DNA from: Terriglobia bacterium
GTDB taxonomy: Bacteria; Acidobacteriota; Terriglobia; Terriglobales; Acidobacteriaceae
Length of the DNA stretch: 64,000 bases
Direction of reading: 5' to 3'
Assembly (NCBI GenBank): GCA_020073015.1
Contig: JAIQFZ010000011.1
Location: 1 to 64,000, forward strand
In this document: piece after piece, positions 4,575 through 51,145 of the stretch
Numbering within the stretch: position 1 is the stretch's first letter
Layout: each line of letters begins with the position of its first letter
Translations under genes and position numbers: made by a program
Notes under the pieces: model-generated
Database searches by the model: none
What the model was told of the DNA's origin: nothing
The model's input: the letters and a program-made list of their open reading frames with translations, nothing else

Positions 4575-7097
4575 CTACCGCCCTACCGGCTCGTACTTCT
4601 TCTTCGCCTCCCCCAGCAAACCCAGCACCGACTGCTTCTCCGCATCCGTGTTCCAGGACGTGTTACTCCGAGCGGCCGCGATCAGCCGATCCACCCAAGC
4701 AACAAAATAGGCCGCGTCCGCCGGGCTCCGCAAAGGCGCGCCCGCCACATTCACATACACCGGGCTGGTCGTCGCATACGGATACAGGTCGAGAATCGGA
4801 TACTCCGCCTTATCGCTGAACGCCCGCAGAACGCACCAACCACTGCTGTCGAGCACGACGGTACCGGAAGCGTCTGCGGTCTTGCGGTCTCCTTTGAGTT
4901 CAATGTCGCGCGCAACCTTGCCGTTGCACACAATCTGCAGATGATCCAGCGGCACGATCGACCGCAGAGAAACCTTGAACGGCACGTCCTGCTTCTTTTC
5001 CAGTTGAACTTCGTCCCCCACCTTCTTCCCGCCCAGTTCGAAACTCACAAGCGGCCCGTTCGTGGCAAACGTTCGTCCAGCTTTGATCGCCGCCAGCCAC
5101 GGCTCAATCTCCAGCGGCCCGGGCTTCACCTCGGCATAGACGCGGTTCAAACCCACCGGCCCGCGCAGTGACGCGTAGTTGCCCATGAAATCCGTGCCGG
5201 CGGCAGTGGGCAGTCGGAATCCGCAATTCAGCAGCTTGTACCAAACCTCGGCGGTCGATTTATGATCCGAGAAGCCAACCACCTCGATGTAGTCCACCTT
5301 GCCCAGTGCCACATCGGCCGGCAATTCATAAGTGAGTGACTCGTCTTTCGTCGGATCCGGGAAGCTGTCCAGCGGATGCACATATCCCACCAGCGCGCCC
5401 TGTTCATGCGCCATATCAGCAACGTTCGCGTTCGTCGGAAACAAACTAGCCGCCGCCGTATTGGGATACGCGGCATATCCGGGAAGTAAGAAGTTCTGCG
5501 TCAGGTTCAGCAGGCCGAGATGCCCCCAATAACTGGTGTGAAATTCCTGTCCATGCAGTAACAGATGTTGCTCGGTCGAAGCCGGATCGGGATGAGGCAT
5601 GAAGCGTTCAATGTCGGGAACGCGCTGCTCTTTATTGACAATGAGATCTTCGACGATCGCCAGATTCTCGGCGTCCGCCTGCTCCACCAGATGCTCCGCC
5701 GTGTTGCGGTAGGTCCCGGCGTAGTTCATGTGCGCATGGACGTCGCCGCTGACCCACTCCGCCGGTTCGTACGGAATCATCAGCCGCAGGTGCACGGTGA
5801 GGTTGGCAGTGCTGTCGGGTTTGATTTCCACCTGCTGCTGTTCGAAGGCATATTCGAACCCGCGCATGACATCGACTTGAACCGTGCCGGCCGGGACCGT
5901 CAACTCCGACGTCCCCATCGTGTCGAAATAGTGCGCCTCAAATGGACGCTCCGACCGGTCAAAGCTGTCGTCGGCGTGCATCCAGGCATCGTCGGGAGCA
6001 GAGGCGCGCCCGTCGGCGCCGGTCACGAACACCCGCGCCGCGACCGGCTTTCCGCGCGAATCGATCACGTGTAACGCCAGCCGCCCCATCGGCTTCAGGT
6101 ATTTCCGCGTGCGAGCGACTACTTCCGTCTGCTCTCCCCCGGGGATCGCCTGAATCCACAGCGAAGTATTTCCATCGCGATTGGAAATGAACGCGATCTT
6201 CGTCCCGTCCGGCGACCAGCGGGGACTGGTGTTGTCAAATTCTCCATACGAAATCGGAAACGCATCGCCGGCCGCCGCCGGCATCACCCAAAGCTGGTGC
6301 CATGCCCGGCCCAGATATGACGCATACACCATCCGCTTGCCATCCGGCGAGAAGTCCGGCCGAGCCTTCCAGTTGGTCTCTTCGTAATGAATCTCCCGCG
6401 CTTCGGCTCCTGGCTCCGCCTTCATCCGCCAAAATCCGCCGGTACCGTGAATGTGCCCGCGATTCGATACGAACAAGATCTCCGAACCATCCCGCGACCA
6501 GACCGGGCTGATCTCGTGATCCACTTTGCTGTAGTAATAACGCGGCAACGGGCTGACATTCTCGGCCGTAAGTTGCCGGACATCGCTCAGCGTGCCACCT
6601 TCAAACCGGCCAACGAAGATATGGAAGTGCCCCTTATATGAAGTCGAGACAAAGGCCAGTTGCTTGCCATCCGGCGAGAACCGCGGCTCCACATTCACCG
6701 CTCTTCCCGACGTAATCTGCCGAGTCCGTCCATCCCGCACATCGAGGGACCACAACTCGACCGCGTCATGGTCGTAGCGCGCAAACACGATCCACCGCCC
6801 ATCGCTCGACCAGTCCGGCTGGTAGTCATAGCCAGGCCCCGCCGTAAGTTGCTCGGCCATCGTGCCTGCAGTCTCCTGCCGCCACAGCGACCCCGCCATC
6901 GAGTACACCAGACTGCGCGAGTCCGGCGACCAAGCCGCCGCGCTCGGACCCGTGGTCAACTGCGGCAAATACATTTCCCGATAGTAATAAGAGTGGGGTA
7001 GATCAATCTGCTGCAGCACCGTCTGGCGCTGCGCAAAACTCGCACCGGCAAAAAGAAGCGACAACAACCCTAAGAAACGGAACTTAGACAAGACCAT
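4575..7097 (-). CDS. Secreted TolB/PD40 propeller plus PHP-type (CehA/McbA-like) metallohydrolase
   Basis: The 840-residue protein starts with a signal peptide (MVLSKFRFLGLLSLLFAGASFAQ). Residues about 50-330 form repeated PD40/TolB blades with the recurring pattern WSPDGxxIxFxSNRDG. A short linker (MGRLALHVIDSRGKPVAARVFV) looks like a carboxypeptidase-regulatory-type beta sandwich. From about residue 455 comes a PHP-like metal site (GDVHAHMNYAG), then LLHGQEFHTSYWGHLGLL, GYVHPLDSF and GTDFMGNYASLRG. These resemble CehA/McbA family metallohydrolases. The order suggests a periplasmic or surface enzyme whose propeller recognises a ligand. The substrate is unknown. The gene is followed downstream on the same strand by nothing, and an APC permease gene lies 16 bp upstream, so the two may be co-transcribed. 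Confidence 0.82.
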   Translation of the reverse strand: MVLSKFRFLGLLSLLFAGASFAQRQTVLQQIDLPHSYYYREMYLPQLTTGPSAAAWSPDSRSLVYSMAGSLWRQETAGTMAEQLTAGPGYDYQPDWSSDGRWIVFARYDHDAVELWSLDVRDGRTRQITSGRAVNVEPRFSPDGKQLAFVSTSYKGHFHIFVGRFEGGTLSDVRQLTAENVSPLPRYYYSKVDHEISPVWSRDGSEILFVSNRGHIHGTGGFWRMKAEPGAEAREIHYEETNWKARPDFSPDGKRMVYASYLGRAWHQLWVMPAAAGDAFPISYGEFDNTSPRWSPDGTKIAFISNRDGNTSLWIQAIPGGEQTEVVARTRKYLKPMGRLALHVIDSRGKPVAARVFVTGADGRASAPDDAWMHADDSFDRSERPFEAHYFDTMGTSELTVPAGTVQVDVMRGFEYAFEQQQVEIKPDSTANLTVHLRLMIPYEPAEWVSGDVHAHMNYAGTYRNTAEHLVEQADAENLAIVEDLIVNKEQRVPDIERFMPHPDPASTEQHLLLHGQEFHTSYWGHLGLLNLTQNFLLPGYAAYPNTAAASLFPTNANVADMAHEQGALVGYVHPLDSFPDPTKDESLTYELPADVALGKVDYIEVVGFSDHKSTAEVWYKLLNCGFRLPTAAGTDFMGNYASLRGPVGLNRVYAEVKPGPLEIEPWLAAIKAGRTFATNGPLVSFELGGKKVGDEVQLEKKQDVPFKVSLRSIVPLDHLQIVCNGKVARDIELKGDRKTADASGTVVLDSSGWCVLRAFSDKAEYPILDLYPYATTSPVYVNVAGAPLRSPADAAYFVAWVDRLIAAARSNTSWNTDAEKQSVLGLLGEAKKKYEPVGR

Positions 7098-7113
7098 CCT
7101 CCAGCCTCACAAA

Positions 7114-8409
7114 TCAGACTTTCACGCGATCGGCGCGCCGCGCCCAAACCCAGTTCAAGACCGCCGCCGCCATCGTCGCCGCCAGGATGAACGACTTACT
7201 CAGATCGACCTGCGTGGTCAGCGCCAGGGCGATCAGGATGCCGACTACCGCCAGAAACGAACCGGCGGGTAGACTCAGCCGCGCGGCGCCGGGCTGCTTG
7301 GAACGCAACGCGATCAGGGCCGCACAAATGACCCCGTAGTAGAACAAACGAGCGACCACCGACAGCGTAACATTCCACGTAAAACTCCCGATGAGGGCCA
7401 GTGCCCAGACCACGGTCGCGTAGACCAGAATCGAGATCCACGGCGTGTGAAACTTCGGACTGACCATTGCGAACCAGTGTGGCAGGTCTCCACGTTCCGC
7501 CAGGGCGAATGTGACCCGCGGCATCCCCAGCAGCTTTGCGCTCAGGTAGCCGTAGATGCAAACCAGCGCCCCGACCGCCACCAGTCCCGCGCCGCGGTTG
7601 CCCATGGTGACGCGGGCCACCTCGGCCAATGGGCGGTCCGTGATGGCCTGAGAGCCCAGCACTCCTACGACCACCCACTGCACCAGGGCATAAATCGTGA
7701 CACACACCACCAACGCCCCAAACAAAGCAAAAACTGAATCCCGGCGCGGATTCTTGGCCTCGCTCATAGGAGCCAGCGCTGACTCGAATCCACCGTAATT
7801 AAAAAACAGCAGCGCCATCGCCTGCAGCCACACACTGCTGGTCGCCGGTTCGGTGCCACCCAGCGGCGCCGGACGCACGATGGTGTACGCCCCCCCGGCC
7901 AGCACCACCATCAGCAGCGGCAGTATTTTCGCCACCGTAAACACATTGCTGACCGCCGTCCCTTGCCGCGCGCCGAGGATGTTGATGAACGCAAGCACCC
8001 AGATCAGAAACGTCAGGATCAGAAAGCGCAACCAGAAGTGTTTTGCAGCCGGCCAGAACTCGGCCAGATAGATCACGAACAGGTTGGCATTGGCAGCGGG
8101 AGCCGCCGTCTGCGCCAGGTACAACATCCAGCCCACCAGAATTCCCATCAGTCTGCCAAACGCCGCACGGGCGTACAAATAAGGTCCACCCGCTTCGGCA
8201 AACTGCGAAGCCACCTCGGCGAAGCAGGCCATGATCACGCCGATCGCTGCGCCGGCGATCAAGACCGCGAGAACGCTGTCCTTCCCGAGCAGACCAGCGA
8301 TGATCGCTGGCAGCCCGAATATGCCGCTGCCAATGACAGAATTCACCGTTAGTGCGATCAGGCTCCAGCGCCCGATGGCCCGCACCAAGCCAGTTTGCGG
8401 TGATGTCAT
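7114..8409 (-). CDS. APC superfamily amino-acid permease
   Basis: This is an integral membrane transporter of about 431 residues with roughly 12 hydrophobic segments. The N-terminal signature ALTVNSVIGSGIFGLPA matches TM1 of the amino acid-polyamine-organocation superfamily, with the Gly-Ser-Gly-Ile-Phe unwound segment used for substrate binding. The ATG at 8409 is chosen over an upstream TTG at 8433 because it starts just before the conserved helix. It lies 16 bp upstream of the TolB/PHP hydrolase gene on the same strand, which suggests an operon in which the permease is transcribed first. A role in importing products of the hydrolase is possible but only inferred. The substrate cannot be read from the sequence. 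Confidence 0.88.
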   Translation of the reverse strand: MTSPQTGLVRAIGRWSLIALTVNSVIGSGIFGLPAIIAGLLGKDSVLAVLIAGAAIGVIMACFAEVASQFAEAGGPYLYARAAFGRLMGILVGWMLYLAQTAAPAANANLFVIYLAEFWPAAKHFWLRFLILTFLIWVLAFINILGARQGTAVSNVFTVAKILPLLMVVLAGGAYTIVRPAPLGGTEPATSSVWLQAMALLFFNYGGFESALAPMSEAKNPRRDSVFALFGALVVCVTIYALVQWVVVGVLGSQAITDRPLAEVARVTMGNRGAGLVAVGALVCIYGYLSAKLLGMPRVTFALAERGDLPHWFAMVSPKFHTPWISILVYATVVWALALIGSFTWNVTLSVVARLFYYGVICAALIALRSKQPGAARLSLPAGSFLAVVGILIALALTTQVDLSKSFILAATMAAAVLNWVWARRADRVKV

Positions 8410-9820: not shown

Positions 9821-10153
9821 TCACCGCGGGTTGAAGCGGAGTTCAATCAGTTCCCGGGTTTCACTGGGAGCAGGGGCAAACTTCCAGCTCATTACCGCGT
9901 CTTGCGCGGCGTTAACCAGCACTGGGTGTCCGCCGACCGGCTTCGTTGATTTGACCGAACCGTCGGGAGCAACCTTGGCCGTGAGCTTCACCACACCAAA
10001 CATCTGCAACCGCCTGGCCAGATCAGGATAGACCGGAGTCACCATACGTACGACTTTGCGCGCGGGTTGGGAAGGGTCTGAATCCTGGGCGAGCCAAGCA
10101 CTCGCTGCTACCGTTAGCAGCACAAGGAGAAAAACAATAAAGCGATGGCCCAT
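9821..10153 (-). CDS. Small exported TonB C-terminal-domain protein (mini-TonB)
   Basis: The 110-residue protein consists of an N-terminal hydrophobic signal or anchor (MGHRFIVFLLVLLTVAASAW), a very short linker and one TonB C-terminal domain. The domain runs from VVRMVTPVYPDLARRLQ through GVVKLTAKVAPDGSVKS to the final WKFAPAP and ELRFNPR. It lacks the long Pro-rich spacer of classical TonB, so spanning the periplasm to an outer-membrane receptor looks unlikely. The ATG at 10153 is preferred over a GTG at 10213 because it starts directly at the hydrophobic segment. A close paralogue is at 50748-51080, and a related frameshifted gene is at 37334-37769. The actual partner is unknown. Confidence 0.8.
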   Translation of the reverse strand: MGHRFIVFLLVLLTVAASAWLAQDSDPSQPARKVVRMVTPVYPDLARRLQMFGVVKLTAKVAPDGSVKSTKPVGGHPVLVNAAQDAVMSWKFAPAPSETRELIELRFNPR

Positions 10154-10330
10154 GGGGGGAAATTCGGAACAAATCTGGTCTTGATTCCCAGTGTAGACCG
10201 GTTCGATCTGCACGCAGAATTCCGAAAGTCATCTCCAACTGTTCACGTTCCGCCTGATGCCGGGAGGTGTGGGGAGACCAAGCAAGTCCCAAGGGACGCC
10301 TGAAGTTCTTACGCAGACTCCACCCAACCC

Positions 10331-37333: not shown

Positions 37334-37769
37334 ATGTTTACGAGACTGACGCTGGTAATCGCACTGTGCAGTTTGGGCTGTGCCCGTGCTCTCTCAGGAT
37401 AAACCAGTCATCGTGATCAAACATATGGAGCCATTCGGGTACCCGTGGTTGGCCCGGCAATCGAGACTCCAAGGTAGCATCTCGATACGTTTGAAGATTT
37501 CTTCGACCGGGAGTGTCGTGGACGCCGAAGCAAGTACAGCGGACGCGCTATTGAAGGAACATCCACTCCTGCAGAACGAAACAGTGAAGCAGGTCCGCAA
37601 ATGGGCGTTTGGTTGCCTCAATTGTGCTTCGAAGGACTATTACGATCACACTTTGACGTTCGTTTATAGGCTAGAAGGGGAGGAAACCCAGAAAAGCAAG
37701 AGCCACTTCACAATCGACCCACCGGACCGGGTGACGATTACCGCCAATCCACCACAGGCCAACTGGTAG
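37334..37769 (+). pseudogene. TonB C-terminal-domain-like exported protein, one-base frameshift
   Basis: A ribosome site (AAGGAGC, 37318-37324) precedes the ATG at 37334. The first frame encodes a signal peptide (MFTRLTLVIALCSLGC) and stops early. The long frame from about 37380 encodes VPVLSQDKPVIVIKHMEPFG, then YPWLARQSRLQGSISIRLK, a TonB-C-like pattern. Removing one G from the GGG run at 37375-37377 would join the two as CSLAVPVLSQD, a normal signal-cleavage site. The intact protein would be about 145 residues. A third mini-TonB relative besides 9821-10153 and 50748-51080. A sequencing error or a recent inactivating change are both possible. Confidence 0.72.
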
Positions 37770-43009: not shown

Positions 43010-44125
43010 TCACTCCGCCATTTTCGCTAAGTGCACCGGAAAGCCCGTCTTCGGCAGTAGCGAGGTCAGCTCGAAAACCTTGAAGCCATCGCCGGTGATT
43101 TCGGTCTGGCGATAGACTCCGGGTTCGGTGTCGGCGGTCTCGTGGCGTCCCTGGAGATCATCGAGGAACTTCTGTGCTTGTTTAATGCTGACTTCTCCAC
43201 CTTTGACGCGAGTTACAACGGCCTCGGTCGCATACGAGCGAACGAGTTTGGGCCAGTATTTCTGGAATAACTGCGTGCTCGCGAAGATATCGGCCCACAC
43301 CACGTCGCCATTCACGGCAACCACGACTCCGACGGCATTCTTCTCGCGGAGCTGGCGGATCACGCTCTCGTAGTTGCGCTGTACGGGTTCGGCGACAGCG
43401 TTCACTTGCTTCTGAACTTCCTTGTTCTCCATGACACGTGCATAAGAAGTGGTAGAGTTCACCGCGGGAGCGGCTCCAGTGACCTCAACCGTCTCGGACA
43501 TAGCCTGCTGTGAACTACGAACGCTGTCCCAAACCTGCTGCTGATTCTTCGCGACCATGGCCTTGCTGCGCACTGTCGGAGAGGCGAGCAAACCCCCGAC
43601 CGCTCCGCCGGACGACGTGTTGAACTCGTACTTCCCGTTCGCCGCCACCCAGCGCCCTGGCTCCACGCAGAACACACTCAAATCCACGGGGTCACTTTCG
43701 GCGGGCACGATGCGGTCTTTGCCGATCACACGGTCCTGCTTGCCACCGGTTACAATCTCGCCCGCCAGGAGTAACAATGGACGCTTAGAGTTATTCACCA
43801 ACATCAGCCGGTTTACTTCCGCGTCCCGCACGGGGTGCATCATGTCAGGTATCCCCGGGCGGCGGCGAATCAATCCGCGCGCCTGCCCGGCTTCGGTCAC
43901 GACCACATCCCCGGAGCGGAGGCCCTCGTCGAGGGTAATGAATTCGCTAGTATCGAACGACTTGTTGGCAACCACAGGAAAGACCGTCAGGTTGCCGCTG
44001 CGAATGGGGTTGAGGAGCGTGTAGTTCGACCCTGGCGCCACTTCACCTGCCTGTAACAGGCCCGGAACAACGATAGCCGCCAGCACCAGCAAAGCGATCC
44101 CTGCAAAGACCACGGCAAGCCGCAT
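43010..44125 (-). CDS. ARPP-1-like exported protein with a TonB-receptor-like linker
   Basis: The ATG at 44125 has a TGGAGG ribosome site and gives an N-terminal hydrophobic segment (VVFAGIALLVLAAIVVPGLL). The 371-residue protein contains the ARPP-1/DUF6569-like core, notably RPLLLLAGEIVTGGKQDRV and IGKDRIVPAESDPVDLSVFC. Residues about 210-228 read SETVEVTGAAPAVNSTTSY, resembling the start of the linker found after carboxypeptidase-regulatory domains in acidobacterial TonB-dependent receptors. The same motif occurs in the anti-sigma protein encoded by the neighbouring divergent operon. The family's biochemical role is not known to me. It is divergent from the ECF sigma gene, with 195 bp between. 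Confidence 0.72.
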   Translation of the reverse strand: MRLAVVFAGIALLVLAAIVVPGLLQAGEVAPGSNYTLLNPIRSGNLTVFPVVANKSFDTSEFITLDEGLRSGDVVVTEAGQARGLIRRRPGIPDMMHPVRDAEVNRLMLVNNSKRPLLLLAGEIVTGGKQDRVIGKDRIVPAESDPVDLSVFCVEPGRWVAANGKYEFNTSSGGAVGGLLASPTVRSKAMVAKNQQQVWDSVRSSQQAMSETVEVTGAAPAVNSTTSYARVMENKEVQKQVNAVAEPVQRNYESVIRQLREKNAVGVVVAVNGDVVWADIFASTQLFQKYWPKLVRSYATEAVVTRVKGGEVSIKQAQKFLDDLQGRHETADTEPGVYRQTEITGDGFKVFELTSLLPKTGFPVHLAKMAE

Positions 44126-44320
44126 AAAGAGCCTCCAGATACCGAAGACACCCATCCCTTTGCGCGCGTTCCTGGGAGTGCCCCGGCACGGCTGGCCGGC
44201 GCGTGCCGGGGTACGCAATCTGCGAGTCTTCCAGGAGAGTGTTTGGTTGCCTCGCTGGTTGAAGAACGTACGAATTCCACGGACTTGCGTCTAAAAAATT
44301 GCTAGCATCCTCACAGGGAT

Positions 44321-45268
44321 ATGCCAGGGTCCACCCAATCCGGCCAGGAAGAGGACGTAAAGCAGAGCCTTTATCAGCGTAGCGGGGCGGCGGTGTATGG
44401 TATGAGTACCGCGGAGTTTGCGGCCATCCTAGAGGAAATTCAACGCAAGTATCTGCCCGGCGCTGCGACCGAACAGGCGGCTGAGTTCTGCGCAAGTTTG
44501 CGGCTGGAAGAATTGGCGCTGGCGCGCGCCTGCGCCGCGGGCCATGAACGCGCGTGGCAGGACTTCATCAGCCGCTACCGGCAAAAGCTGTATGGCATGG
44601 CCCTTCATCTTACCCGCGATAGTGAACATGCATCAGAATTGGCCGATTCGCTCTTCGCGGATCTGTACGGATTGAACATGCGCAGCGATACTCGGGAGCC
44701 GGGTGCTGAGGCCGCGCACGTTCGGCGCTCCAAGCTGATTTTCTACACCGGGCGAGGCTCGCTTGAGGGCTGGTTGCGGACGGTGATGGCGCAGGAGTTC
44801 ATTAATCGGTATCGCAAGCAAAAGCGTACGGTCAGCCTGGAAGAACAGACCGAGGAAGGGGTGCAGTTTGCAGCAGCTGCGCCCGAGCCAGCGTGCTCGC
44901 CAGACCGGCGGCTGGAATCGGCCACGGATCAGGCGCTGGCGGAACTGTCGTCCGAGGATCGCTTTGTGCTGGCGTCGTACTATCTGGATGGGCGGACACT
45001 GGCCGAGATTGCGCGTACGCTCGGGCTGCATGAGTCGAGCATCAGCCGCCGACTCGACCGCGTCTCGGACGGGCTGCGGAAGCGCATTCTGGCGGGGCTG
45101 CGGGAGCGAGGTATGAGCCATGCCCAAGCCACCGAAGCGCTGGCTACGGATGTGCGGGACGTCCAGCTCGATCTCCGCGGACGCCTCATGCAAGATTCCA
45201 AAGCGCAATCGTTCTCTATAAGAAAGGTCTCCGCGAAAGACGCGGGCAGCGACGGGAACCATGCCTGA
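44321..45268 (+). CDS. ECF RNA polymerase sigma factor
   Basis: The 315-residue protein has sigma region 2 (ACAAGHERAWQDFISRYRQK, then LYGMALHLTRDSEHASELAD) and region 4 (LAELSSEDRFVLASYYLDGR, with a HTH at LAEIARTLGLHESSISRRL, about residues 225-250). It is longer than the usual ECF factor (about 180-200) because of an N-terminal extension of about 65 residues and a linker of about 80 residues between the two regions. The ATG at 44321 has a weak AGGGA. The stop overlaps the start of the anti-sigma gene by 8 bp. Its target promoters are not identified; an autoregulated promoter may lie upstream. Confidence 0.88.
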   Translation: MPGSTQSGQEEDVKQSLYQRSGAAVYGMSTAEFAAILEEIQRKYLPGAATEQAAEFCASLRLEELALARACAAGHERAWQDFISRYRQKLYGMALHLTRDSEHASELADSLFADLYGLNMRSDTREPGAEAAHVRRSKLIFYTGRGSLEGWLRTVMAQEFINRYRKQKRTVSLEEQTEEGVQFAAAAPEPACSPDRRLESATDQALAELSSEDRFVLASYYLDGRTLAEIARTLGLHESSISRRLDRVSDGLRKRILAGLRERGMSHAQATEALATDVRDVQLDLRGRLMQDSKAQSFSIRKVSAKDAGSDGNHA

Positions 45269-46628
45269 AGTACCCAAAATCGTGCACGACCGCCTGCGGG
45301 CCGGCTTCCCGGGAGGCACTGTGCCGGAGGCCTCGCATCCCGATCCGGATGTGCTGACGGCATTCGCCGAGCAGGCGCTTTCAGCCGCGGAACGTGAGGG
45401 TGTTCTGCAGCATCTGGCGCGGTGTGGGGATTGCCGTGAATTGGTGGCTTTCAGCATTCCGCCCATGGAGAGTGGCGCTCAACCCGTATCGGCGGAGGAA
45501 AGCGAATCGACGGCTTCAGCGGCGAGCCACACGCGGCGAGAAGCTGGCGGACGGCGGTTCTGGTTCGCTTGGCCGGGGTTGCGCTGGGCCGCTCTGGCAG
45601 CGGGGATTGCGGTGGCAGGCGGCATCTTACTGATCCATCCGGGGAAACCGAACTCGGCCCCGGAAGCCAGACAACAGCCCGCAGGCACGGTGACGCAGCC
45701 TGCTGAAACGATCGTGGCTAAGCAGGCTACTCCAGCCCCCGCAATCGCCGCTGCAAACCATGCGGAAAAGAAGCCGACGCCGGCAGGGCGGCTATCCAGA
45801 CGGGACAAGGAGTTGCAGCTCGCGTACTCGGCCGCAGCTCCGGCAGCAAACGCAATTGCGCGCGGACAAATCGAGCCGAGCGCTGCAAGTAAGGACGCGG
45901 CGGTGGGTGCAGCGGTCGGTGCAGTGGGTGGTGCGGCGCCAACCAGTCCCGCGCCTGCACCGCAGGTGCCGTCGGTCTCTGAGGTGGTCGAAGTCACGGC
46001 TGCATCGGGACCCGTCACGACCGAGGAAGCGCGAAACGATCTCCCAGTCACCGCCAGACAAGTTGCCGATCTCCCATTGAACGGGAGAAACATGTCTGAA
46101 CTGACCATCAGCAAAGCGAAGGCGGCAAAGACGGAATCAAATGAACCGTCTGCTCTGCAACGATCGCAAAGCCTGGACAGGAAACAGGGGACAATGGAAA
46201 CAACGGCTCAGCCGCAACGCGCGGCAGCAGCGGGGATGACCACCACGGCGGCCAATTTGCGTCCCAACGCCGGCGATTTCCCGCAACCAGCAGAACACCC
46301 CGCCCAGTGGGCCATTCACGGAAACGATCTGCAGCGCTCGCTGGATTCAGGCGTGGCGTGGAAAACCGTTCTCCACTCTGACCGTCCGCTGCTCTGCTAC
46401 GCCGCAGGCGGCAACGAACTCTGGGCCGGAGGCAAGGGGGGTGACCTGTTCCATTCCGCGAACGGTGGCGTCGCCTGGAACCAGGTGCATCCTTCGGCGC
46501 AGGATCAGACTCTTTCTGCCGACGTTACTCACATCGATCTCTACAGCCCCTCTCAAATCGTACTCTTCACCAGCAACAATCAATCCTGGAGCACCGTAGA
46601 CGGCGGGAAAACCTGGGCGAAGAAGTGA
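45261..46628 (+). CDS. Membrane anti-sigma factor with zinc finger, TonB-receptor-like segment and YCF48/BNR tail
   Basis: The 455-residue protein begins with a zf-HC2 anti-sigma domain (HPDPDVLTAFAEQALS and VLQHLARCGDCRELV, ligands His51, Cys55, Cys58), which in this family holds the sigma factor. One transmembrane helix follows (FWFAWPGLRWAALAAGIAVA, residues about 100-126). The periplasmic part is Ala, Pro and Gln rich up to residue 240. There VSEVVEVTAASGPVTTEEA and ARQVADLPLNGRN (about 240-276) match the linker and plug start of acidobacterial TonB-dependent receptors. The C-terminal 100 residues form a YCF48/BNR-like segment (WKTVLHSDRPLLCYAAGGNE, DGGKTWAKK). The layout suggests a sensor for an envelope signal, perhaps receptor state. 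It is co-transcribed with the sigma factor. Confidence 0.85.
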   Translation: MPEVPKIVHDRLRAGFPGGTVPEASHPDPDVLTAFAEQALSAAEREGVLQHLARCGDCRELVAFSIPPMESGAQPVSAEESESTASAASHTRREAGGRRFWFAWPGLRWAALAAGIAVAGGILLIHPGKPNSAPEARQQPAGTVTQPAETIVAKQATPAPAIAAANHAEKKPTPAGRLSRRDKELQLAYSAAAPAANAIARGQIEPSAASKDAAVGAAVGAVGGAAPTSPAPAPQVPSVSEVVEVTAASGPVTTEEARNDLPVTARQVADLPLNGRNMSELTISKAKAAKTESNEPSALQRSQSLDRKQGTMETTAQPQRAAAAGMTTTAANLRPNAGDFPQPAEHPAQWAIHGNDLQRSLDSGVAWKTVLHSDRPLLCYAAGGNELWAGGKGGDLFHSANGGVAWNQVHPSAQDQTLSADVTHIDLYSPSQIVLFTSNNQSWSTVDGGKTWAKK

Positions 46629-50747: not shown

Positions 50748-51080
50748 CTACGGATTGAAATGCAGCTCGATGACTTCCTTGGTTTCCACGGCAGCGGGCG
50801 CAAACTTCCATTGGTGGAGGGCATCTTCGGAGGCCTGAATAAGCACGGGGCTACCCCCCATAGGTTGGACCGATCGCACCGTTCCATCCGGCGCCACCGT
50901 GGCCAGTATCTTCACCGTGCCCGACATTTTCATTTTTCTCGCAAGCTCGGGATAATTCGGCACGAGTTTGCGGACGACTCGGCGAGCGTTGTCCGGTGAT
51001 GCCGGGGCCTGTCCTTTGGCTGCCGATGCCAACAACAGCGGAGGACCAAAGAATAGAACCATGAGATTGCGCAGCCTCAT
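50748..51080 (-). CDS. Small exported TonB C-terminal-domain protein (mini-TonB)
   Basis: The 110-residue protein is a close relative of 9821-10153, with the same length and structure: a signal segment (NLMVLFFGPPLLLASAAKG), a short linker and a single TonB-C domain (VVRKLVPNYPELARKMKMSG, ATVAPDGTVRSVQPMGGSP, WKFAPA). No Pro-rich spacer is present. The product may work as a periplasmic adaptor rather than an energy transducer. Duplicate copies at two loci, and a third broken one, suggest an expanded family. The promoter probably lies in the 51081-51145 gap. Confidence 0.82.
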   Translation of the reverse strand: MRLRNLMVLFFGPPLLLASAAKGQAPASPDNARRVVRKLVPNYPELARKMKMSGTVKILATVAPDGTVRSVQPMGGSPVLIQASEDALHQWKFAPAAVETKEVIELHFNP

Positions 51081-51145
51081 AATCTTTATCCCTAGCCGAC
51101 TGAGATTCTCATAATGGACTACCTTCCCATCTTAGGAGGCAAAGA

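Follow-up and report, generated by a model that had tools for sequence, protein, structure and literature searches.

A TonB-receptor-type segment in the linker of a putative acidobacterial anti-sigma factor and in the neighbouring ARPP-1 protein

The DNA analysed here (the window) is a 64-kb part of contig G000:C114 from a 5.5-Mb draft genome of a Terriglobia bacterium in 245 contigs. It holds a three-gene module consisting of an ARPP-1 gene on the minus strand, a divergent extracytoplasmic function (ECF) sigma factor gene and, behind it, the gene of a membrane anti-sigma factor, the start of which is overlapped by the end of the sigma gene. The subject of this work is a receptor-type segment found in the anti-sigma factor, the box of which recurs in the adjacent ARPP-1. 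The features concerned are the following:

43010..44218, minus strand: ARPP-1 protein, divergent from the sigma gene (PF20208, E 1.3e-63, 215.5 bits against a cut-off of 27)
43412..43507, minus strand: receptor-type TonB-box segment SETVEVTGAAPAVNSTTSYARVMENKEVQ inside the ARPP-1 domain (receptor profile, E 0.0094 genome-wide)
44321..45268, plus strand: ECF sigma factor
45261..46628, plus strand: membrane anti-sigma factor of 455 aa (open reading frame, Pfam, structure prediction)
45975..46112, plus strand: receptor-type segment VSEVVEVTAASGPVTTEEARNDLPVTARQVADLPLNGRNMSELTIS, residues 239-284 of the anti-sigma factor (match to own-genome receptors, receptor profile)
45978..46001, plus strand: TonB-box-like SEVVEVTA, residues 240-247 (position-specific scoring matrix score 21.8; shuffle p 0.005, the floor of 200 shuffles)
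46071..46091, plus strand: plug-start motif LPLNGRN, residues 271-277 (match to own-genome receptors)
46299..46625, plus strand: C-terminal YCF48/BNR-like domain, residues 347-455 (AlphaFold2, Foldseek)

The anti-sigma factor starts with a zf-HC2 domain (residues 32-59, Pfam E 1.2e-5, above the cut-off), and this Hx3Cx2C-type N-terminal zinc domain, encoded beside an ECF sigma gene, places it among the class I zinc anti-sigma factors; putatively, it binds and inhibits its sigma factor. One transmembrane helix is predicted at residues 106-125. The following linker of about 220 residues (126-346) is predicted to be disordered, the AlphaFold2 model (alignment of 48 rows) having block-mean predicted local distance difference test (pLDDT) values of about 38-60 over residues 126-340. 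Residues 351-455 of the same model reach a pLDDT of 94-98. A YCF48/BNR-like tail after the helix and linker had been proposed in the first-pass annotation, and indeed the best fold match of residues 347-455 is YCF48 (5ojr_C, Foldseek E 3.5e-6, 114 columns); the Pfam family PSII_BNR matches the tail at E 0.0016, below the family cut-off. PHROGs gave no match at E<=0.01.

Residues 239-284 align without a gap to receptors of the own genome, the best of them being 47% identical over 43 residues (E 1.1e-4, one-genome search). From the V of VEV to the L of LPL there are 28 residues both in the anti-sigma factor and in this best receptor (VEVSATEVAVETTNPTLGQVITSEQVADLPLNGRD), so the receptor-like spacing of VEVTAA and LPLNGRN noticed in the first-pass annotation is confirmed. 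A profile made from own-genome receptors only recovers the anti-sigma factor at E 6.8e-11 genome-wide, a somewhat favourable value, since the receptors of the profile were gathered using the anti-sigma factor's own segment (matches in ARPP-1, in the alpha-2-macroglobulin (A2M) described below and in other genomes are unaffected). With the whole anti-sigma factor as the query, frames of relatives match only over residues ~235-285, with E down to 4.6e-6; these frames are mostly receptor-sized (about 1050-1360 aa), some having 195-854 aa. Both results uphold the earlier proposal that the anti-sigma factor incorporates part of the receptor signature. The search with receptor profiles suggested at the same time had a divided outcome, as the own-genome profile matches and no Plug, barrel or receptor family was found in the protein in Pfam at E<=1. 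Of a receptor it holds only the ~46 residues of the box and plug-start region, and neither a complete plug nor a beta-barrel.

The 56-residue receptor segment has ETVEV at residues 9-13, and in five own-genome receptors (C113, C162, C173, C200 and C238) the Plug match of Pfam begins at its residue 19-22, which puts the box just before the plug. TonB boxes lie just before the plug in receptors, according to the part of PMC11637429 available, and it is this position, together with the consensus, that justifies the name TonB box; the window anti-sigma factor has the box consensus at receptor spacing before the plug start. No solved receptor chain could be aligned to the box by sequence at E<=0.1, and profile A1 gave no receptor among four solved chains at E<=10. 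Chance resemblance was rejected on the basis of the whole-genome and ORF-wide (open reading frame) profile searches and of within-protein controls, while the shuffles take no account of kinship. The uniqueness of VEVT[AG]A, which occurs at two places in the genome, both in the anti-sigma/ARPP-1 pair, was dropped as an argument because receptors use the near variants VEVTGE and VEVSA; the reversed control gave 3 and 1. The segment is almost certainly homologous to the TonB-box and plug-start region of acidobacterial TonB-dependent receptors.

At E<=10 the receptor profile matched the own genome 43 times. The recognised carriers other than receptors are the anti-sigma factor, ARPP-1 and one A2M, two of them being encoded by adjacent genes, and the 33 other matches at E<=1e-3 are receptor-sized or cut or broken frames. 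Among the frames below 1000 aa that were checked, C216, C31, C148 and C47:62 are receptor frames cut at contig ends, C180 and C47:4038 are receptor frames ending inside a contig (stop or frameshift), and C112, C17 and C225 were read as receptors, C17 also having a Plug match; C90 (E 1.24) was assigned to no class. Frames above 1000 aa were counted as receptors by size, many also by a Plug match, and apart from the receptor loci only C10 was opened. In six further genomes the profile had 385 matches at E<=0.01 (37 to 109 per genome), and among the matches listed (down to E 5.7e-14) all lie in frames of at least 950 aa except for one frameshifted receptor. Frameshifts that may be assembly errors or pseudogenes were seen in a receptor at L351 (G078:C1:3034500-3039500) and in an A2M gene at L380 (G017).

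That ARPP-1 shares the receptor-type box of the anti-sigma factor (SETVEVTGAAPAV) goes beyond the first-pass annotation. Judging from its N-terminal hydrophobic helix ARPP-1 is presumably exported; its fold had no PDB match at E<=0.001 and by sequence no solved chain scored below E 0.14. Apart from this pair, the window yielded no receptor segment. The third carrier lies on another contig:

G000:C10, locus L378, 7493-11059, plus strand: A2M with CarboxypepD_reg, a box and KELPLNGRNVMDL before the A2M domain

This A2M has a CarboxypepD_reg domain (E 1.3e-24) and the box SEAIAVAGASVMVETE, and KELPLNGRNVMDL stands just before the A2M domain. The receptor profile finds the protein in two pieces (E 0.00275 and 0.081). 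Within the 19 kb around it there was no match to the window sigma or anti-sigma factor.

The sigma factor is present in 107 of 200 genomes of the family at E<=1e-50. The window and 106 further loci gave 106 sigma factors, 102 anti-sigma factors and 74 recognised ARPP-1 proteins. Another 80 named loci come from Acidobacteriaceae, Ca. Sulfotelmatobacter, Ca. Korobacter, a Bryobacteraceae and similar organisms, nearly all of them metagenome-assembled genomes; 44 had sigma genes already in the set and nine lacked a sigma match. The union comprises 133 modules with 125 anti-sigma factors and 101 ARPP-1 proteins. The box statistics leave out six of the 101 ARPP-1 proteins, which have no CVExGRW landmark, and alignment A3 holds 101 of the 102 anti-sigma factors (all but L171). 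The alignments for structure prediction include 47 of the 65 named anti-sigma factors and 64 of the 80 named ARPP-1 proteins, length and landmark failures and some further ARPP-1 having been omitted.

Among the 4678 open reading frames of the 107 stretches, the best 30 matches of the receptor-only profile were all anti-sigma factors or ARPP-1. In the named loci four true receptor frames score high as well, namely the receptor genes downstream of the anti-sigma gene in L247, L250, L261 and L268. With an 8-residue box model the box is significant (shuffle p<=0.05) in 45 of 125 anti-sigma factors, where 6.25 would be expected, and in 27 of 95 ARPP-1 proteins (4.75 expected); 26 and 12 of these, respectively, reach the shuffle floor of p 0.0025. 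Matches of at least 10 bits number 55 in the 125 linkers (7.25 expected), one in the N-terminal parts, six in the tails and six in 133 sigma factors. The longer segment (18 bits or more) occurs in eight of the 125 anti-sigma factors (window, L041, L178, L177, L172, L265, L270 and L261). Absence of the segment from orthologues had been named in advance as a refutation of the first-pass annotation; the box and, in few members, the longer segment did turn up, and LPLNGRN is missing from most close orthologues, so that its conservation across orthologues is rejected. As an observation apart, 58 of the 125 linkers have a KAK motif after the box region (13 expected by shuffling; residues 285-287 in the window).

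A Pfam scan of 101 orthologues (E<=0.01; L265 is not in this set) found zf-HC2 in 98, PSII_BNR in 93 and CarboxypepD_reg in two. Above the Pfam cut-off CarboxypepD_reg is present in the linkers of three anti-sigma factors, L178 (E 1.7e-15), L265 (1.7e-18) and L201 (7.6e-17). In L178 and L265 it is followed by the box and the plug start, which is the receptor order; L201 has a plug-start-like LETNGRNVANLKQMSP before CarboxypepD_reg. Between them, the stretches captured in L178 and L265 share 68% identity; with the receptors compared, each reaches at best 40-44%. With these three orthologues, one of them with a weak box, and with a similar module in the paralogous anti-sigma factors described next, the layout sought in other genomes is shown to recur. 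One member of the scan has a Lactamase_B match (E 6.3e-22) and is by reading the L054 anti-sigma factor of G015, a 627-aa orthologous frame (6037-7917) in which a metallo-beta-lactamase-like part (HTHFDH) replaces the YCF48-like tail; in G015 neither the anti-sigma factor nor ARPP-1 has a significant box.

Module-bearing A2M proteins are present in 10 of 101 genomes, the own one included, at E<=1e-25. In G012 and G017 the A2M gene lies directly downstream of a paralogous (type-2) sigma and anti-sigma pair, and the type-2 anti-sigma factor has a plug start, CarboxypepD_reg, a box and a BNR-like tail, the last assigned by reading, with no Pfam match at E<=0.001. CarboxypepD_reg was found in all three type-2 anti-sigma factors scanned (G012, E 2.5e-20; G017, 1.5e-20; G005, 1.5e-19). 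Among 250 genomes of the family, 15 had a match; in six rows (G085, G086, G093, G122, G212 and G261) the shared part had picked up receptors or pieces of them, and ten type-2 anti-sigma factors were recognised (G012, G017, G272, G172, G294, G110, G217, G289, G201 and G005). Eight of the ten, from six genera, carry the module with the order of parts kept, as assigned by Pfam in three; for the remaining five the assignment combines likeness to the A2M query, receptor-profile scores of 10.6 to 29.1 bits and reading. The order sigma factor, anti-sigma factor, A2M recurs in four loci (G012, G017, G172 and G294), with the module in both anti-sigma factor and A2M; the G172 genome is a single contig, which speaks against an assembly artefact. 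No such A2M was found beside the type-2 anti-sigma gene within the stretches examined for G272, G110, G217, G289 and G201; in G005 the anti-sigma gene is the last on its contig, and the A2M is on a different one. Judged by these profile matches, an anti-sigma factor and its linked partner can share one receptor-derived module.

Within genomes the modules of anti-sigma factor and A2M resemble each other. LPLNNRN occurs in both proteins of G294 and NGRN-x-DRLE-x-FA in both of G012, and an exact permutation over five genomes gave 2/120 for the box, 2/120 for the plug start and 1/120 for both, the true pairing being counted in each. Similarly, 16 of 19 type-1 pairs with both boxes have the same middle residue in VxV, as compared with 12.75 in permutations. 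Such agreement, as well as the presence of the module in the linked partner in two paralogous systems, would be expected if the modules of anti-sigma factor and partner paired with each other, or both bound another periplasmic protein, so that the state of the partner would be read directly and TonB would have no part. We consider this rather unlikely. The likeness within genomes is suggestive only, since three of the five genomes belong to one genus and no kinship correction was made, and it could stem from gene conversion or shared ancestry; moreover, the ARPP-1 matches stop at about NKEVQ, short of the plug-start motif. We know of no precedent for such pairing of tags.

By sequence similarity, then, the linkers of members of this anti-sigma family, and in many genomes a neighbour (ARPP-1, or A2M in the paralogous system), carry a module homologous to the N-terminus of acidobacterial TonB-dependent receptors, which contains the TonB box and, in some members, also the plug start and CarboxypepD_reg in front. 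Our preferred explanation, held tentatively, is that the module serves as a docking tag for TonB C-terminal domains, because the copied part is where a receptor meets TonB, the linker is predicted to be unstructured and the neighbour can bear the same part. In a disordered linker the box would be free to pair with the beta-sheet of TonB. TonB C-terminal domains, including those of small TonB_C-only proteins, could thus dock on the anti-sigma box, and docking or pulling by TonB would set the access of a site-1 protease to the periplasmic part of the anti-sigma factor; alternatively, one TonB or mini-TonB might hold the tagged partner and the anti-sigma factor together. The inputs could be whether TonB is free or engaged with loaded receptors, or else the state of the partner (an A2M that has trapped a protease, or ARPP-1), and opening of the periplasmic part would set the sigma factor free. 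In FoxR, contact with the receptor controls protease access to the anti-sigma factor, as far as described in the consulted part of PMC11637429. Every step past the homology to the receptor box and plug start we infer. That Terriglobia use the receptor N-terminus as an exchangeable tag, which would plug anti-sigma factor and partner into TonB and let gene expression reflect the energy and occupancy of TonB, or the state of the partner, without an outer-membrane receptor, is doubtful.

Several observations weigh against a docking tag. The box is significant in only the 45 of 125 anti-sigma factors and 27 of 95 ARPP-1 proteins given above, and it is labile, with 17-22 changes in the anti-sigma factor and 14-20 in ARPP-1 on the sigma tree. 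Within the genus, the alignment shows LPLNGRN for the window and G001 alone; at this place most other members have LMARN..KAKPA. In L201 the box after CarboxypepD_reg is weak (7.4, shuffle p 0.57), two of the ten type-2 anti-sigma factors (G289 and G201) show no module, and the A2M of G172 has only 8.8 bits over box and plug with the receptor profile, its CarboxypepD-like stretch being recognised by eye. In the ARPP-1 model the box is part of a helical region (pLDDT near 80) and not a free strand. Anti-sigma factor and ARPP-1 both have the box in 17 cases, only one of them in 18 and 7, and neither in 46 (Fisher p 3.5e-4; Spearman 0.48, n=88), and this co-occurrence is not significant on phylogenetically independent pairs (about 3-5 for and 0.6-1.5 against, median p 0.2-0.5). 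Genes for TonB_C proteins were not found to be enriched near the module: phmmer with two of the window's small TonB_C proteins gave 4 matches in 3 of 117 loci (1.34 Mb), where the density in the own genome, derived from a Pfam model more sensitive than phmmer, would predict about 6 to 7. Finally, the segments of the window and G001 are 87% identical and the preceding linkers 59%, and recent copying explains this as well as selection does, because the synonymous rate is low too (dS 0.168, as compared with 0.589 in the linker; dN 0.068) and dN/dS is only slightly lower than in the linker (0.40 and 0.455, respectively). Clean purifying selection on the segment thus had no support.

A low dS is also seen in the captured CarboxypepD_reg of L178 and L265, and together with the lability of the box, the absence of LPLNGRN from most close orthologues and the predicted disorder of the linker it would fit a history in which recombination brings fragments of the many receptor genes into disordered linkers, where they drift without any function. 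This is unlikely, as the recognised non-receptor carriers of the own genome are restricted to the anti-sigma factor, the adjacent ARPP-1 and an A2M, the part order is kept in most type-2 anti-sigma factors across several genera, and the L178 and L265 stretches have the mutual identity given above. The segment probably has some selected function.

The mini-TonB proteins to which the first-pass annotation pointed as possible partners are real, three of the 27 TonB_C matches of the own genome (5.5 Mb, Pfam model) lying in the window, two with signal-like starts:

9824-10228, minus strand: small TonB_C frame
37359-37766, plus strand: small TonB_C frame
50751..51131, minus strand: small TonB_C-only frame with a signal-like start, candidate binding partner

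Their nearness to the module is not a general trait, and no conserved mini-TonB neighbourhood was found in the 117 related loci.

No receptor gene was found beside the sigma and anti-sigma genes in the window (receptor profile, 20 bits or more). In L247, L250, L261 and L268, which form one clade, a TonB-dependent receptor gene follows 0.8-1.4 kb downstream of the anti-sigma gene on the same strand; many loci hold less than 2.5 kb downstream of the anti-sigma gene, which limits this count. No FecR family, which would mark a FecR-type cell-surface signalling regulator, was found in the window anti-sigma factor in Pfam at E<=1. The four downstream receptor genes, the many receptor matches of the own genome and the fact that the segment copies a periplasm-facing part of the receptor suggest one more possibility, in which the segment would act as a decoy. 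It and the receptor N-termini would compete for a periplasmic factor that handles the latter, be it a chaperone, a protease or TonB, and in this way receptors that are in excess or have not been assembled would free the sigma factor. The model for this is the sigma-E system, in which unassembled porins act via DegS. A decoy leaves the same module in the partners unexplained, we know of no factor that handles plug starts, and we regard this explanation as improbable.

Two further features lie between the ARPP-1 and sigma genes. One is a GC-rich inverted repeat, CCCCGGCAC...GTGCCGGGG (44181-44211), which is conserved in the genus. The other is

44284..44309, plus strand: conserved element CTTGCGTCTAAAAAATTGCTAGCATC just 5' of the sigma gene (alignment of relatives)

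Its consensus is CTTGC[AG]TC[TA]AAAAAATTG[CA]TAGCATC, closely similar in the other genera aligned, and it is a possible promoter or operator, perhaps autoregulated.

If the tag does bind TonB, TonB would be an input to transcription besides being the power supply of transport, and the module would offer a way to approach ARPP-1 and the alpha-2-macroglobulins of bacteria in a phylum with dozens of receptors per genome. In the one open-licence library searched, neither an anti-sigma factor bearing a TonB box or CarboxypepD_reg nor any mention of LPLNGR was found. The acidobacterial TonB-dependent receptors, which we take to be those named 'Oar-like', have the same order of CarboxypepD_reg, box and plug start, and the window protein also matches them in the distance between the last two; unlike them, the anti-sigma factor is without the rest of the plug and the barrel and is anchored by a transmembrane helix. 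With YCF48, a photosystem II assembly factor, it has in common the fold of its C-terminal ~110 residues; unlike YCF48, this tail corresponds to about a third of the YCF48 chain and is fused to an anti-sigma factor. The class I zinc anti-sigma factors (ASDI) share the Hx3Cx2C zinc motif, the single transmembrane helix and a variable C-terminal part, and in the main text of the ASDI survey, as far as available, TonB, carboxypeptidase and propeller have 0 occurrences each (PMC7406223). Similarly to FecR- and FoxR-type signalling (FecIRA, FoxIRA), as portrayed in the available parts of PMC9249621 and PMC11637429, the module combines an ECF sigma factor, a membrane anti-sigma factor, features of TonB receptors and, by our reading, a signal crossing the envelope. 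In the known cell-surface signalling described in those parts of the two papers the receptor bears the signalling domain, which makes contact with the anti-sigma factor (PMC9249621, PMC11637429). In the module, unlike FecIRA and FoxIRA, the receptor box and plug start are on the anti-sigma factor itself and the box is also on a second protein. We therefore see known pieces of an ECF/anti-sigma system in a new arrangement, possibly a separate tag system, in which the regulator, and at times the protein of the adjacent gene, carries what would be the docking part of a receptor.

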